Of a stretch of 64,000 nucleotides of DNA, positions 58,931 through 64,000 are shown piece after piece. Numbering within the stretch: position 1 is the stretch's first letter; each line of letters starts with the position of its first letter. Origin of the DNA: Methylocystis sp. L43. Its GTDB lineage: Bacteria; Pseudomonadota; Alphaproteobacteria; Rhizobiales; Beijerinckiaceae. The position numbers and the translations under genes were made by a program. The notes below the pieces were generated by a model that was not told the origin of the DNA, did not search any database, and saw nothing but the letters and a program-made list of their open reading frames with translations. The stretch covers positions 124,001 to 188,000 of the forward strand of contig NZ_JADNRA010000032.1 of the NCBI RefSeq assembly GCF_015709525.1, written 5' to 3'.

Positions 58931-59022
58931 CGGCTCTCCCTAGCACTCCTTTGCGGCAGGGCGCGAATTCACCAGGATCGTTTGGTCGCCCGCCCGACTC
59001 ACGGCAAATAGGGAGCATAACG

Positions 59023-59262
59023 TTGAGACAGAAAATGACTGAAGCGGAAATTGACGCCGCCGTCGCAGCCGATCCCGATTGGGCGGAGTTCGAGACCGTC
59101 GACTGGAGCAAGGCGGAGATCGTCACGCCACCGAGAAAGCAAGCGATTTCGATCCGCCTTGATCAGGACCTGATCGATTATTTCAAGTCGCAAGGCCCGG
59201 GCTATCAGCGGCGCATCAACGCCGTCCTGCGCAGCTATGTGAAGCAGCGCAAGGCGGGTTGA
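59023..59262 (+). CDS. Orphan BrnA-like antitoxin
   Basis: 79 residues. The DNA-binding ribbon-helix-helix part KQAISIRLDQDLIDYFKSQGPGYQRRINAVLRSYV near residues 35-70 matches the BrnA antitoxin family. I prefer the TTG at 59023 because GGGAG lies seven bases upstream; ATG 59035 is the alternative. A BrnT toxin should lie just upstream on the same strand, but that space is the dnaG promoter region, so the toxin is missing. Confidence 0.75.
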   Translation: MRQKMTEAEIDAAVAADPDWAEFETVDWSKAEIVTPPRKQAISIRLDQDLIDYFKSQGPGYQRRINAVLRSYVKQRKAG

Positions 59263-59268
59263 GCGCGG

Positions 59269-61692
59269 CTATTCCGACACGACCCGCAGCGGCGCTGTGA
59301 AGTCTGGCAGCGAGTCAAAACTGATCGGACCGCCGAACGTCAGGCGCACCGCCGGCGGCTCGACCGGCTTGAAGTGGCGGTCCATGACGCCGACGCCGCA
59401 AACCGCGCCGGGAGCGAGGCCGTTGACGCACTGCTGGTAGAGAGGATCGCTCGGCAGCAGCGACCCATAGCCGTAAGTGATCTGGTCGGAGCGCGAATTG
59501 AAAATGTTAAAGGCGTCGAACTGGATGCGCCAGCCGTCCGCCCAGCGATAGCCGAGCCGCGCGTTGAGGGTGCCAGTGGCGGGCGAGGTGAAATAGCCAT
59601 CCGGCGTTAGCGGGCGCGCGCCGAAATAACGATATTTCATGCCGGCGAACCAGCCGGTGGCCTCGCCGATTTCAAGCCCGCCCATTGCGACGATCGCGGG
59701 GGCGTTGAAGAGATAGTTGCCGGGGGCGTTGCCAAGGAAGGTTCCGTAAGGCAGCGTCTCCGCCGTCGTCAGTTCGGCATAGCTGAGCCACGCATTCTGA
59801 TCGACGCCGCGGAAGCGCGTATTCACAATGGCCACATTGCCGTCGAAGCTGATCCAGGACACCGGATGATAGTGATTGGCGATTTCGATGCCGTAGCGGC
59901 GACTCGGGCGGCCAAATTCCGTCGTGCCGGCGTCGCCGACATATTGGTTTTCGGAGTCGAGATTGAGCCAGAACAGGCTCACGCTTGAGTCGAGTCCCTC
60001 GATGAATTTGGTGCGCCAGCCGATTTCCGCGCCGCGCGACTTCACGAGCAGCGGAATGCGCCCGACGACGGAGAAGCTATCGAGGTCGAGCCCCTCGATG
60101 CCGCCAATTTCCGCGCTCGCGAAGCTCTGCACCGTGCCGCGTGCGTCGGTGGAATGGAACCCTTCGCCGAAATTCAGGAACATCTCGGTCGCATACCAGG
60201 GACCGAGAATGATCGAGGCCTTAGGACTGAAGATAGACGCGTCCTTCTGGCCATTGTTGAAGGGACCGGTCCACAGAAAGACCGGCAGCCCGGCGCTATT
60301 GAAGACTTTCGGGGCGTCCGCCAGGGTCTGAATCGAGTTGGTGGCGGCTGAATAAAGGTCGACGCGCGCGCCCGCCACCGTTCGCAGCCACGGCGTCCAA
60401 CTCACCGTCGTATCGGTCCAGATGCCGATGCTGCCTTCTCCGACATAATCGTTTCGGATCGAATCGTAGATGTTGCGGCGGAAGCTTTCCTGCAGGCCCA
60501 GACGAATGTCGTCATAGCGACCCTGAAGCCCGAAGCGGGTCTGGACGGGAAGACCGAAAGAGTTCCAGGCGATCCCATGCTGAGCGTTGACGCCGACGAT
60601 CGTGCGGCGGTCGAACTGGCGGAACTGATCTCCGACGTCAGGATGCGCGAGGTAGTACGTGAAGTTGTTGTAGAGCTCCAAAGTCGAGCGGATCGCGTAG
60701 GCTTCGACGCGCGAATAGTGATTGCCTTCTGTCTGGCTCCATCGTCCAGAGAGCGAAAAACGAGTCGTGTTGCCGCCATCGGTCGGGTCGAGCGTGCCCC
60801 ATAGCGACAGCAGGCCGGAGTTGACGGCGCGCATGGGAATCTGATCGGTTGAATACCAGCGGTTGGCGTAGGCCATCGCGGTCAACGACATGCCGTCGCT
60901 CTGCGTGCCGCGCGTCCAGCGCAAGACGCCGTTGATCTTCTTTACTTCGTCGCCGCGCTCCCAGGGACCGTTGTAGACATTCATTTCAACGGCGCCATAA
61001 GCGTCGCCGCCATAGATGTCCTTGTAAGGCTGGATGGCGAATCCGCGGCCATAGCCGAAGCTGCCGCCTGTTCCGGAGAAATAGCCTTTGTCGATTTTAT
61101 CGATGTATTGGATGTAGATCGAGCCGGCCGAAGAGAAGTCTCCGTCTTCTGCCGCGTAGGGCCCCTTGTGCACCAGAATCGACGATAACAGCTCGGGCAT
61201 GAGAAAATTCGTGTCGGCGTAGCCCTGCCCGTGGCCGTGCGTGCGCATGTTCAGCGGCATGCCGTCGAGATAGAGCGCAAGATCGGTTCCGTGATCGAGG
61301 TTGAAGCCGCGCAGGAAATATTGGTTGGCTTTGCCCTCGCCTGAGTGCTGCGAGACGATCAAGCCTGGCACGATTTCAAGCGACTCGCTGGGACGCGAAT
61401 AGGGATAGGCCGTCACTTCCTCGCCGGTGTAGAACTTGTCGCTGGACGACGTGAGCGGCGGCGGCTCTTGCCCGACCGACACCGTGGGATCCTGAATGGC
61501 TGGCGTGGGACGAACTGGGCCGCGGCTCGCCTGCCCACTTGGTCGCGATGGCCTCGCAGCGGTGCTGGCCGCCGGGCGATGACCGCCGACATTGATCGTT
61601 GGCAGCGCGGTGAACTGCGCCTGCGCCTCCGCGCCCAGGAGCGATATCGCGACGGCGACGGCGGATACGGAAGCGGCGTTTCTGCGGTTCAT
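59269..61692 (-). CDS. TonB-dependent outer-membrane receptor, putative nickel/metal uptake
   Basis: 807 residues. A signal peptide (SAVAVAISLLGAEAQA) is followed by a Pro-rich spacer, the plug domain (SLEIVPGLIVSQHSGEGKANQYFLRGFNLDHGTDLALYLDGMP, typical TonB receptor plug) and a long beta-barrel. The barrel contains HGHGQGYADTNF near the plug, a His-rich loop. The terminal strand is not Phe-ended in the classic way (LRVVSE), as some receptors. NikR is encoded upstream on the same strand, so import of nickel or a metal chelate is likely but unproven. Confidence 0.85.
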   Translation of the reverse strand: MNRRNAASVSAVAVAISLLGAEAQAQFTALPTINVGGHRPAASTAARPSRPSGQASRGPVRPTPAIQDPTVSVGQEPPPLTSSSDKFYTGEEVTAYPYSRPSESLEIVPGLIVSQHSGEGKANQYFLRGFNLDHGTDLALYLDGMPLNMRTHGHGQGYADTNFLMPELLSSILVHKGPYAAEDGDFSSAGSIYIQYIDKIDKGYFSGTGGSFGYGRGFAIQPYKDIYGGDAYGAVEMNVYNGPWERGDEVKKINGVLRWTRGTQSDGMSLTAMAYANRWYSTDQIPMRAVNSGLLSLWGTLDPTDGGNTTRFSLSGRWSQTEGNHYSRVEAYAIRSTLELYNNFTYYLAHPDVGDQFRQFDRRTIVGVNAQHGIAWNSFGLPVQTRFGLQGRYDDIRLGLQESFRRNIYDSIRNDYVGEGSIGIWTDTTVSWTPWLRTVAGARVDLYSAATNSIQTLADAPKVFNSAGLPVFLWTGPFNNGQKDASIFSPKASIILGPWYATEMFLNFGEGFHSTDARGTVQSFASAEIGGIEGLDLDSFSVVGRIPLLVKSRGAEIGWRTKFIEGLDSSVSLFWLNLDSENQYVGDAGTTEFGRPSRRYGIEIANHYHPVSWISFDGNVAIVNTRFRGVDQNAWLSYAELTTAETLPYGTFLGNAPGNYLFNAPAIVAMGGLEIGEATGWFAGMKYRYFGARPLTPDGYFTSPATGTLNARLGYRWADGWRIQFDAFNIFNSRSDQITYGYGSLLPSDPLYQQCVNGLAPGAVCGVGVMDRHFKPVEPPAVRLTFGGPISFDSLPDFTAPLRVVSE

Positions 61693-61815: not shown

Positions 61816-62283
61816 CTAGCTGGAATGGTGCGGGTGGCGGCCGGTCGTGTGACGATCGACGTGGGGCGTTTCGCCCTGCTCGAGATCCGCCGGCAAGACG
61901 ACGAGCTGCCCGTATCGAACGCCGCGCTCGCCTATCACATGGCCGGCGAAGTGCTCGACATCGGACTTCTGGCCCTTGAGCAGCGACACTTCGAGACAGG
62001 TCGCTTCATCGATGTGCACGTGCAGCGTCGCGATCGACATGTCGGCATGAGAGTGATGGTCATGCATCAGTTTTTTCGACAGCTGTCGCGTCTCGTGATC
62101 ATAGACGTAAACGAGCGCGGCCATGCAGGGGCGGGCGCTGTCATCGGCTTCGGGCGTTTTCAGCAGCCCTGCGCGGACGAGATCGCGAACGGCCTCGGAG
62201 CGATTTCGATGACCGCCTGCCTCCATATACTGATCGAGCGCGCTCATCAGCTCTTCGTCGATCGTTATCGTTACGCGTTGCAT
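61816..62283 (-). CDS. nikR: NikR-type nickel-responsive regulator
   Basis: 155 residues. The N-terminal ribbon-helix-helix domain (MQRVTITIDEELMSALDQYM, RNRSEAVRDLVRAGL) is joined to the C-terminal ACT-like metal domain with the His-rich site motif YDHETRQLSKKLMHDHHSHADMSIATLHVHIDEATCLEV; the last Cys and the His residues match the known nickel ligands of NikR. Start is ATG 62283 with GGAG upstream. The C-terminus ends in an extra His stretch (HVDRHTTGRHPHHSS). It is placed directly upstream of the TonB receptor. Confidence 0.92.
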   Translation of the reverse strand: MQRVTITIDEELMSALDQYMEAGGHRNRSEAVRDLVRAGLLKTPEADDSARPCMAALVYVYDHETRQLSKKLMHDHHSHADMSIATLHVHIDEATCLEVSLLKGQKSDVEHFAGHVIGERGVRYGQLVVLPADLEQGETPHVDRHTTGRHPHHSS

Positions 62284-62449
62284 ATGACGGCTCCGGCTGT
62301 TCGCGCCTCGCCAAGCGTTCAACCCAGCAAACGTCGGGCAAGCGCGACCACTAGTTCATTACGCCAAGGCGCATAGGCCGCCAATAGCGTCGCGGTTTAT
62401 CCCATCGGTGATCATCAAGACATTCGACTCGCCTTTTATCGGATGAGTA

Positions 62450-62477
62450 TTGACCAGCGCGCGATGGGCGCTATTGT
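62450..62477 (+). promoter_or_regulatory. Sigma-70-like promoter of the Cys-rich precursor gene
   Basis: TTGACC (62450-62455) and TATTGT (62472-62477) are 16 bases apart. The start of transcription would be near 62484, giving a leader of about 34 bases that contains the strong ribosome site GGGAGGAG (62507-62514). Confidence 0.5.
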
Positions 62478-62517
62478 CTGCATCCGTGCGGTTTTTGAGA
62501 TTTTTTGGGAGGAGTCT

Positions 62518-62868
62518 ATGGCGCGCTCATCGGACAATCCACAGAACAAACGTCGAGGCAAGAAAGCCCTCGGGGTGATGGGTGTATCTTTGTCGCTTGC
62601 GGGCGCCGCCTGCGTCGACAGTTCTCCTGCTGATGCTTCGACGGCTCCCACGACCAGCCGGACGCGCACGATCGACCTCCGCGAACAGGAAGTGTTCGAC
62701 GTGGGGCTGAATTCGTTCCGCCTGTTCGATCGCGAAGAAGTCCCGGCTGTCAAGACCGAGCAGGTCGCGTGGTGGGTCGGATGCCGCGGCTGCGGCTGCA
62801 GGGGCTGTGGCTGCCGCGGATGTCGGGGCTGTGGCTGTCGCGGCTGCGGCTGCCGTGGTTGCGGGTGA
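62518..62868 (+). CDS. Cys/Arg/Gly-repeat RiPP precursor peptide (TOMM type)
   Basis: 116 residues from ATG 62518 with the near-perfect ribosome site GGGAGGAG; an open frame upstream is not used. Residues 1-88 form a leader: a basic start, a hydrophobic stretch (KKALGVMGVSLSLAGAAC, residues 15-32), a Ser/Thr/Ala-rich part and an acidic segment (IDLREQEVFDVGLNSFRLFD), ending VAWWVG. Residues 89-116 are only Cys, Arg and Gly: five CRGCG units with one extra CRG, 11 Cys in 28 residues. The next gene resembles a cyclodehydratase partner, so the Cys may be turned into thiazol(in)es. Metallothionein or an exported Cys-rich protein is the alternative. Confidence 0.8.
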   Translation: MARSSDNPQNKRRGKKALGVMGVSLSLAGAACVDSSPADASTAPTTSRTRTIDLREQEVFDVGLNSFRLFDREEVPAVKTEQVAWWVGCRGCGCRGCGCRGCRGCGCRGCGCRGCG

Positions 62869-62920
62869 CGCACTACTGCACATTTGACGGCTGAGTCGGT
62901 TCCGATAGGCCATCGGCGCT

Positions 62921-63063
62921 TCGGCCCGAGGACGTGGGCCGAGGCGAGGCGTGCAGTCAGGTCGTGCGGAACATTTACATAGTGTTCCGCGCAGGTCTGT
63001 GGGTCTACGTCGTCTCTCGGATTCCTGAATCGAACAAATCTCGTCGCTCCTGGGCGCGACGAG
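62921..63063 (+). promoter_or_regulatory. Three hairpins between the precursor and its modification gene
   Basis: TCGGCCC / GGGCCGA (62921-62942), GCGGAACA / TGTTCCGC (62966-62990, 9-base spacer) and CTCGTCGC / GCGACGAG (63040-63063). All are perfect 7-8 bp stems. None has a T-run, so they look like attenuators, processing sites or an operator that set a high precursor-to-enzyme ratio. Confidence 0.4.
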
Positions 63064-63084
63064 ACGGGGGCGCGCGACAGCCAA

Positions 63085-64000
63085 ATGACAATTGACGTAT
63101 CTAAACCGCTTGCGCCGAAGCCGGTTTCACAAGAGCGGTTAGGCGACGCCCTTCGATTTGCGCCAAATTTTTCTGTCTATGTCCTGCCGCCTGACGCTGT
63201 CTGCCTTTATTCGGAGGACAGAAAGTTTTTCCTTCGAGGCGCGCTTTATTGCGCGCTGGCGGAGCGGATCGGCGCGGGAGAGGACTCCGACGCCATACGC
63301 CGGGCGCTCTCCGCAGAGTTTCCCCTCGACTCAATAGACGAGGCGTTCAAGCGACTGCTTGATCGCCGATTCGTCGTCCCGGCGGGCGCATCCGATGACG
63401 TTGCGGCGGCCTACTGGGCGAGTCTCGGCCTGCAGCCCGAGGTCGCCGCCAAAAATCTGCAGAAGGTCTCCGTTCAGATCGAAGCCATCGGGATCGGCGG
63501 CGCGCGGGAGCTGGAGAAGGCGCTGGACGTTTTCGGCGTCAAGGTCGTGAAGCGCGGAGGCGATCTGACCATCGCCTTGGTCGGCGATTATCTTGAAGGT
63601 CAACTCGCGGAGTTCAACCGCCGGCGGCTCGAAGCGAAGCAGGATTGGCTGTTGGTGCAGCCTTCCGGCGTTTTCCCGCTGGTCGGCCCGATCTTCAGCC
63701 CGGGCAAGAGCGCCTGCTGGAGATGCCTCGCCGATCGCATGAACTGGAATCGACAGGTCAAGGCTTTCCTCGGCCGCAAGGAGGCGCGCTGCGTCGCTGT
63801 CTCGCCGCTTGGCGCCAATCCGCTCGGCCTGAGCGGCGCCGGCATCGCCGCCGCAGAGATCGCCAAGGCGATCGCCAGCGGCTTCCGCACCGATCTGCAC
63901 GAGCACATCGTGAGCCTGGACCTGATGGGCTCGACGGTGGCCCGTCATTATGTGCCGGCTCGGCCGCAATGCCCAAGCTGCGGCGAGCCCGAGCTGCGCG
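63085..64000 (+). CDS. TOMM leader-peptide-binding / cyclodehydratase partner protein (3' end outside window)
   Basis: ATG 63085 opens a frame with no stop up to the edge, 305 codons. The first 100 residues fit a leader-binding domain (FSVYVLPPDAVCLYSEDRKF, LDSIDEAFKRLLDRRFV). The rest resembles the E1/ThiF-like partner of YcaO proteins, with the first zinc pair of that family in GKSACWRCLADRMNWNRQ and the second (CPSC) at the edge. Family knowledge: it presents the precursor to YcaO, which forms azolines; many members are fused to YcaO. It follows the Cys-rich precursor by 216 bases on the same strand. Confidence 0.82.
   Translation, partial: MTIDVSKPLAPKPVSQERLGDALRFAPNFSVYVLPPDAVCLYSEDRKFFLRGALYCALAERIGAGEDSDAIRRALSAEFPLDSIDEAFKRLLDRRFVVPAGASDDVAAAYWASLGLQPEVAAKNLQKVSVQIEAIGIGGARELEKALDVFGVKVVKRGGDLTIALVGDYLEGQLAEFNRRRLEAKQDWLLVQPSGVFPLVGPIFSPGKSACWRCLADRMNWNRQVKAFLGRKEARCVAVSPLGANPLGLSGAGIAAAEIAKAIASGFRTDLHEHIVSLDLMGSTVARHYVPARPQCPSCGEPELR

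Follow-up and report, generated by a model that had tools for sequence, protein, structure and literature searches.

The stretch of Methylocystis DNA analysed here (64 kb, hereafter the window) corresponds to bases 124001-188000 of contig 31 in a genome of 4.06 Mb. At its right edge begins an operon in which a gene for a precursor peptide (116 amino acids, aa) is followed, in this order, by genes for a fused cyclodehydratase (755 aa), a SagB-type dehydrogenase (490 aa) and an amidase (525 aa). From the sequence, we predict with a probability of roughly 0.88 that this operon directs the synthesis of a linear azole peptide, of the kind known as thiazole/oxazole-modified microcins (TOMM) or linear azole-containing peptides (LAP), and that the Cys/Arg/Gly peptide is very probably converted into a chain of thiazole rings. 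The features of the operon are as follows, in window numbering unless contig 31 is named:

62450..62477, + strand: promoter-like site TTGACC-16-TATTGT of the precursor gene, the sole match in the window to the pattern TTGAC-15-GCTAnnnT
62507..62514, + strand: ribosome site GGGAGGAG, from the sequence
62518..62868, + strand: precursor peptide gene, 116 aa, from the open reading frame and its homologues
62518..62637, + strand: N-terminal part of the leader, which by ad hoc criteria would resemble a secretion signal (basic, hydrophobic and AxA in turn)
62677..62718, + strand: conserved leader motif LREQEVFDVGLNSF, residues 54-67, with [LI](X)4[LIVM], from an alignment of 31 precursors
62782..62865, + strand: core CRG-CG-CRG-CG-CRG-CRG-CG-CRG-CG-CRG-CG, 28 aa with 11 Cys, from the translation
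62869..63084, + strand: 216-base gap between precursor and cyclodehydratase, with strong predicted RNA folding and a putative role
63085..64000, + strand: first 305 of the 755 codons of the fused cyclodehydratase, which runs to 65352 (contig 31, 187085-189352)
63160..63366, + strand: predicted winged-helix leader-recognition region, cyclodehydratase residues 26-94, from PF21084 (E = 0.0015, below cut-off) and an alignment with LynD
63715..63981, + strand: Cys pairs C211-C214 and C296-C299, a probable structural zinc site
Past the window edge, + strand: YcaO domain of the cyclodehydratase, from a family search
Contig 31, 189324-190796, outside the window: SagB dehydrogenase, following the cyclodehydratase, from a family search
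Contig 31, 190845-192422, outside the window: amidase, following the SagB gene, from a family search

Three features of the TOMM/LAP kind are found in this operon: a leader-binding YcaO cyclodehydratase, an adjacent precursor with a Cys-rich core, and a dehydrogenase dependent on flavin mononucleotide (SagB). A sequence-only reading of the window had proposed a TOMM cluster in which the second gene, truncated at the window edge, encodes a separate partner that delivers the precursor to a YcaO enzyme. The cluster type is borne out by the YcaO domain within the truncated gene itself (PF02624, E = 5.6e-92 and 4.7e-91 in two scans). The encoded protein is therefore a fused cyclodehydratase, and there is no separate partner handing the peptide to YcaO. 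That reading had also suggested family searches for both proteins, and these succeeded for one of them: the full protein of the 305-residue fragment matches TIGR03882 and TIGR03604 above cut-off, while the window precursor matches no NCBIfam or Pfam model at E<=1, the NHLP/Nif11 leader models included, and none of six precursors scanned rises above the cut-off of any model in these two collections. When compared with the PDB, the cyclodehydratase profile aligns over nearly its whole length with LynD (6.6e-182) and TruD (2.3e-177), and in two stretches with MusD. The CWRC and CPSC pairs noted in the earlier reading (C211, C214, C296 and C299) are invariant in 36/36 aligned relatives and align with CWDC and CPTC of LynD; they probably form a structural zinc site. 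The N-terminus, which had been called leader-binding-like, aligns in the family profile with LynD from residue 6. The closest named cyclodehydratases are themselves from Methylocystis (a metagenome-assembled genome at 99% identity and M. rosea SV97 at 98%). The dehydrogenase carries TIGR03605 (SagB) and the cyanobactin oxidase domain PF22767, both above cut-off, and its nearest PDB entries are 8pz5 and CyaGox (~1e-50, over residues 111-480).

The last 28 residues of the precursor are exclusively Cys (11), Arg (6) and Gly (11), as the sequence-only reading had stated. Across 22 Methylocystis cores the units are 139 CRG, 55 CG, 19 CGG, 5 CW, 3 CGA, 2 CWG and 2 CAG, and the 139 CRG units are encoded by 29 different DNA 9-mers. 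The +1 frame of the core DNA is also open and equally poor in residue types (entropy 1.58 vs 1.68), and low complexity alone therefore does not identify the coding frame. Second codon positions of the core are invariant and third positions variable, and the ratio of nonsynonymous to synonymous rates (dN/dS) in the leader is 0.10-0.23 in seven pairs, in four of which dS exceeds 1 and is near saturation. This codon-position pattern, together with the conserved leader, shows that the core is maintained as a protein sequence.

The gene's own promoter and ribosome site, both claimed previously, are conserved as well: the promoter-like pattern lies upstream, and a GGAG/GAGG ribosome site within 20 bases of the ATG, in 22/22 Methylocystis precursors tested (22 of the 24 precursors found; the start pattern did not pick up L077, and the divergent L076 was left out of that search). 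The promoter pattern has a single match in the window, with 0.03 expected by chance, and is present in 3/100 shuffles. It should be noted that it was derived from the window site and its relatives, so that conservation weighs more than the chance figure. An alternative in-frame start upstream, at 62443, would give 141 aa; the 116-aa start is preferred because the ribosome site stands before it. The RNA of the gap that follows is predicted to fold at -99.2 kcal/mol (z -3.1), and the gap is about 159-225 bases long across 22 loci (a slight overestimate for those whose enzyme match begins past residue 1). This folded gap may allow the precursor to be produced in excess over the enzymes. Structural relatives of the precursor were also sought in the PDB, where a profile of 31 precursors gave chance-like weak matches (best E 0.039) and the sole match to a Bradyrhizobium leader stretch was a designed helical protein; these candidates were rejected.

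Within Methylocystis, YcaO is present in 25/39 genomes, all but one of which yielded a precursor (24/25); the contig of the exception, G034, stops 248 bases before the enzyme match, and in G028 the precursor shares a second contig with the beginning of the enzyme gene. No precursor was found at E<1e-5 in the 13 of 14 YcaO-negative Methylocystis genomes searched (one match at 0.009). In a wider set made up of the best 80 of 127 relatives, 15 of which are apparently Methylocystis genomes already counted, a precursor adjoins the enzyme in 74/80 loci (73 by pattern and L094 by BLAST) and the remaining six have at most 497 bases of DNA upstream of the enzyme. Homologues of the Cys-rich gene thus lie beside modification enzymes, as the sequence-only reading implied. 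SagB stands beside the cyclodehydratase in 80/80 loci, a few of them cut by contig ends, and related precursors occur next to the same enzymes in Bradyrhizobium, Methylobacterium, Methylocapsa and Methylosinus. A search of 397 family genomes gave 36 with the enzyme at E<1e-150; 11 of these are outside Methylocystis, of which ten have a precursor and one (L197) has just 364 bases upstream. Sampling 199 genomes of the order yielded at least four precursors in at least three genomes (three adjoining YcaO and one orphan), counts that are a lower bound as at most 21 candidates were scored per listed genome. YcaO is present in 52 of the same 199 genomes, so that the majority of the order's YcaO genes were not observed together with this precursor.

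These data demonstrate that the precursor, the fused LynD/TruD-type cyclodehydratase and the thiazoline oxidase adjoin and are conserved together. A metallothionein-like peptide, whose Cys would be free or disulfide-bonded and which would have the YcaO cluster as a chance neighbour, is difficult to reconcile with an adjacency conserved across genera, a common leader motif and the co-occurrence of YcaO and precursor, and we consider it extremely improbable.

The leader motif [LI](X)4[LIVM] is present in 31/31 aligned precursors from several genera, with E58, D61, L64 and F67 invariant, and so is the longer motif [LI](X)4[LIVM]xD[VI]xLxxF of the Bradyrhizobium-type CRG group; most leaders from outside the genus were gathered with a pattern containing part of the motif, and the invariance is therefore partly built in. 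The motif is absent from no locus with sufficient upstream DNA, and L094, overlooked by the pattern, also carries it. An L(X)4L rule was described for LynD and MprC, and the PatE leader uses L(X)4L to add a strand to the LynD recognition domain (excerpts of PMC12455567). A leader motif that appears to obey this rule of LynD-type recognition, in 31/31 aligned precursors, is new here, and we infer that it binds the winged-helix N-terminal region of the cyclodehydratase in the LynD manner. LynD/TruD and ThcOx-type oxidases of the cyanobactin pathways are the closest solved enzymes, and an L(X)4L-like leader motif is common to both systems, whereas no domain of the PatA/PatG-type cyanobactin proteases occurs in the four genes of the operon or in the neighbours scanned, and the host is not cyanobacterial. 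In heterocycloanthracin (HCA) systems the cyclodehydratases do not have this N-terminal recognition part, and a separate F protein is required (excerpt of PMC4603692). Unlike these enzymes, the window cyclodehydratase has a recognition part, and no second leader-binding gene is found among the four operon genes.

Based on these comparisons, we propose the following route. The leader motif (LREQEV..) would dock there, on the winged-helix N-terminus, and the cyclodehydratase would close up to 11 Cys onto the preceding Gly carbonyl to give thiazolines, and the SagB enzyme would oxidise these to thiazoles. The product would then be a cationic chain of single thiazoles with spacers of Gly or Arg-Gly. 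More tentatively, the signal-like start of the leader could direct export by the general secretion machinery (our own criteria for the first 40 residues are satisfied by 28/31 leaders vs 481/6200 shuffled leaders), and the amidase, with its Tat-type (twin-arginine translocation) start, might work outside the inner membrane on the core C-terminus.

Several observations weigh against this interpretation, in addition to the partly built-in invariance of the leader motif. Reading past base 64000, where the sequence-only reading had suggested looking for YcaO, dehydrogenase, protease and exporter genes, yielded the first two, but a scan of the neighbours over ~5.5 kb on the upstream side and 10 kb on the downstream side recognised no gene for export, proteolysis or immunity. 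The PF21084 match of the recognition region lies under the Pfam cut-off, and an AlphaFold model of the precursor has low confidence and no structure (mean pLDDT, the predicted local distance difference test, 51). In addition, 14/39 Methylocystis genomes show no YcaO (six of these 14 are <90% complete). Finally, an orphan precursor with a CRGCAARG-type core (L160:7325-7867, + strand, genome G209) has no cluster enzyme within the 16 kb read around it; its genome has the cluster on another contig.

The amidase was lacking from the earlier picture of the cluster. It matches PF01425 above cut-off, and the signatures GGSSGG and DxGGSxRxP, which we take to mark the amidase active site, are present in 19/19 orthologues. 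A twin-arginine start (e.g., ARRDVLIGAG, TRRAFLMGAG), presumably a Tat signal, is found in 18/19 orthologues, the start of L056 not being resolved. An amidase orthologue (E<1e-200) occurs in 18/39 Methylocystis genomes, every one at the cluster: 18/25 YcaO-positive genomes have it there vs 0/14 YcaO-negative ones (Fisher P value = 7.9e-6, kinship uncorrected). Three further matches of ~46% identity are paralogues elsewhere in the genomes. Among the 80 loci of the wider set the amidase is complete in ten and a remnant in one, all of the Methylocystis/Methylosinus group, some of the other 69 loci being too short to reveal it; among the 11 enzyme-bearing genomes of the family outside Methylocystis only G397, apparently Methylosinus sp. 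Sm6, has it. The link between the cluster and an amidase specific to this lineage is new here.

In a tree of 36 cyclodehydratases, the Methylocystis sequences with CRG/CG cores and Methylosinus form one well-supported group of ten rows. The other 26 rows comprise 22 with a CCxSWGxCRxC-like core tail, one with a variant tail that escaped the tail pattern (L104), two with none (L100 and L102) and one with no precursor (L064); the clusters of Methylocystis G007 and G034 belong to this other group. The CCxSWGxCRxC tail is absent from the window core and from the precursors found for its ten-row group. In the 19 amidase-bearing clusters (18 Methylocystis and one Methylosinus; L072 and L073 are almost identical, and the G028 precursor is taken from its second contig), the core ends in G (9), GG (4), GA (3) or AG (3), whereas in the amidase-less clusters of the same tail-less group (L060, L062, L065, L067 and L068) it ends in CW in 5/5. 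The amidase gene appears to have been lost in the CW-ended clusters, because L065 retains a fragment (residues 18-71, E = 4e-17) and, where the gene normally starts, L068 keeps a seven-residue trace at best (E = 1.6, insignificant alone); L060, L062 and L067 have no convincing amidase trace. These five loci occupy three places on the cyclodehydratase tree. L060, however, has a precursor and gap most like those of L062/L067 but a cyclodehydratase most like that of the window, and we therefore count at least two independent joint changes. As we read it, amidase presence tracks a Gly/Ala end and amidase loss a Cys-Trp end through at least two independent changes, which is also new here (Fisher P value = 2.4e-5, kinship uncorrected). 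The pattern was spotted only after looking, which weakens this P value and the branch-based estimate given below.

The simplest meaning of this correlation is that the amidase acts on the core C-terminus. It may instead be a by-product of shared descent and operon recombination with no functional link, an explanation that we regard as possible, though short of even odds. The mixed affinities of L060 speak for it, as the five cases may stem from two events, and so does the fact that the pattern was noticed after the fact; yet the pattern is seen in two lineages that differ in core pattern and stop codons, and two coinciding changes on 43 branches have a chance of ~0.001 with branch lengths ignored. 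We tentatively suggest, at a similar level of belief, that the amidase was recruited in Methylocystis/Methylosinus for C-terminal tailoring of a polythiazole that is exported, a step outside the inner membrane that could be trimming, amide exchange or coupling, with enzyme and peptide end evolving as a unit. We know of no instance of such amidase-type C-terminal tailoring for azole peptides. An enzyme of self-protection that destroys the toxin, with Trp-ended peptides spared or resistant, would fit the failure to recognise any other immunity gene in the scanned neighbours and the altered core end that accompanies amidase loss in 5/5 clusters. We consider this rather unlikely, since most of the family (complete amidase in 10/80 loci, some of the others being too short to reveal it) seemingly does without the enzyme. 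In addition, its best full-length PDB relative, ClbL (2.1e-82), which belongs to a different pathway, that of colibactin, is called bond-forming (excerpt of PMC10478638).

By analogy with known azole peptides, the product of the operon probably acts against competing bacteria. Whether it could rather be a metallophore or metal store has to be weighed against the neighbouring genes, which include:

61816-62322, - strand: NikR nickel regulator, divergent from the precursor gene, from a neighbour scan
59269-61692, - strand: TonB-dependent receptor, after NikR, from a neighbour scan
58951-59262, + strand: BrnA-type antitoxin gene, PF14384

Methanotrophs require copper and nickel, metal binding is possible for polythiazoles, and the NikR and TonB receptor genes stand directly upstream of the precursor. 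However, NikR is at the cluster in only 10/27 stretches compared (window included, some of them short), all close relatives, and in 0/66 loci L094-L159, and no uptake gene was seen travelling with the cluster. As NikR adjoins the cluster only in close relatives, we treat this neighbourhood as shared synteny; the nickel link was set aside for this reason, and a role in metal binding seems improbable.

A Cys-Arg-Gly repeat precursor from Bradyrhizobium japonicum was put forward by Lee et al. 2008 and is mentioned in Haft 2009 (excerpt of PMC2674419). The Bradyrhizobium loci read here, which may not include the 2008 gene, have leader motif, enzymes and gene order in common with the window cluster. 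Their cores mostly end in CCxSWGxCRxC and contain other residues, whereas the Methylocystis core consists of CRG and CG(G) units, and the Methylocystis cluster, unlike these loci, has an amidase. Heterocycloanthracin and sonorensin have a low-complexity Cys-Xaa-Xaa core that varies by whole units (excerpt of PMC2674419), and the window core is alike in its low-complexity Cys repeats changing by whole units; the heterocycloanthracin model TIGR03601 does not match the window precursor at E<=1 and matches two of five relatives weakly, below cut-off. The sequence-only reading had known of no characterised product with this core; it had missed that the kind is already noted in print. The kind of cluster is thus known, little-studied and uncharacterised, and the Methylocystis form with an amidase is new. 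Literature searches, which left subscription journals mostly outside, found no description of the Methylocystis cluster, and its absence in print is therefore not established; the main text of Cox et al. 2015 (PMC4603692) has no word starting with Bradyrhizobium, Methylo, rhizobi or amidase.

With a single precursor, a fused cyclodehydratase, an oxidase and an amidase, and with a core built from two repeat units, the cluster offers a small testable system that would reveal how many rings can be set on a regular template by one enzyme bound to the leader. What the amidase does can be tested directly in natural strains, since some have it (M. silviterrae and M. suflitae) and others do not (M. 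rosea SV97). Overall, our findings point to a little-explored peptide family in methane oxidisers and root-nodule bacteria.

Some further observations were made on relatives and neighbours of the cluster. In Methylosinus L094/L193 the core has CCRG repeats, in which adjacent Cys could yield paired thiazoles. Methylovirgula sp. HY1 carries the cluster on plasmid pHY1 (L162), near cbb3 oxidase genes, and its precursor reading frame is readable but missing from the incomplete gene table. One scanned neighbour of the window operon is without any family match. Another, beyond the window, encodes a hybrid histidine kinase (L002:8607-10495, - strand) that is split into two frames here and continuous in four relatives.
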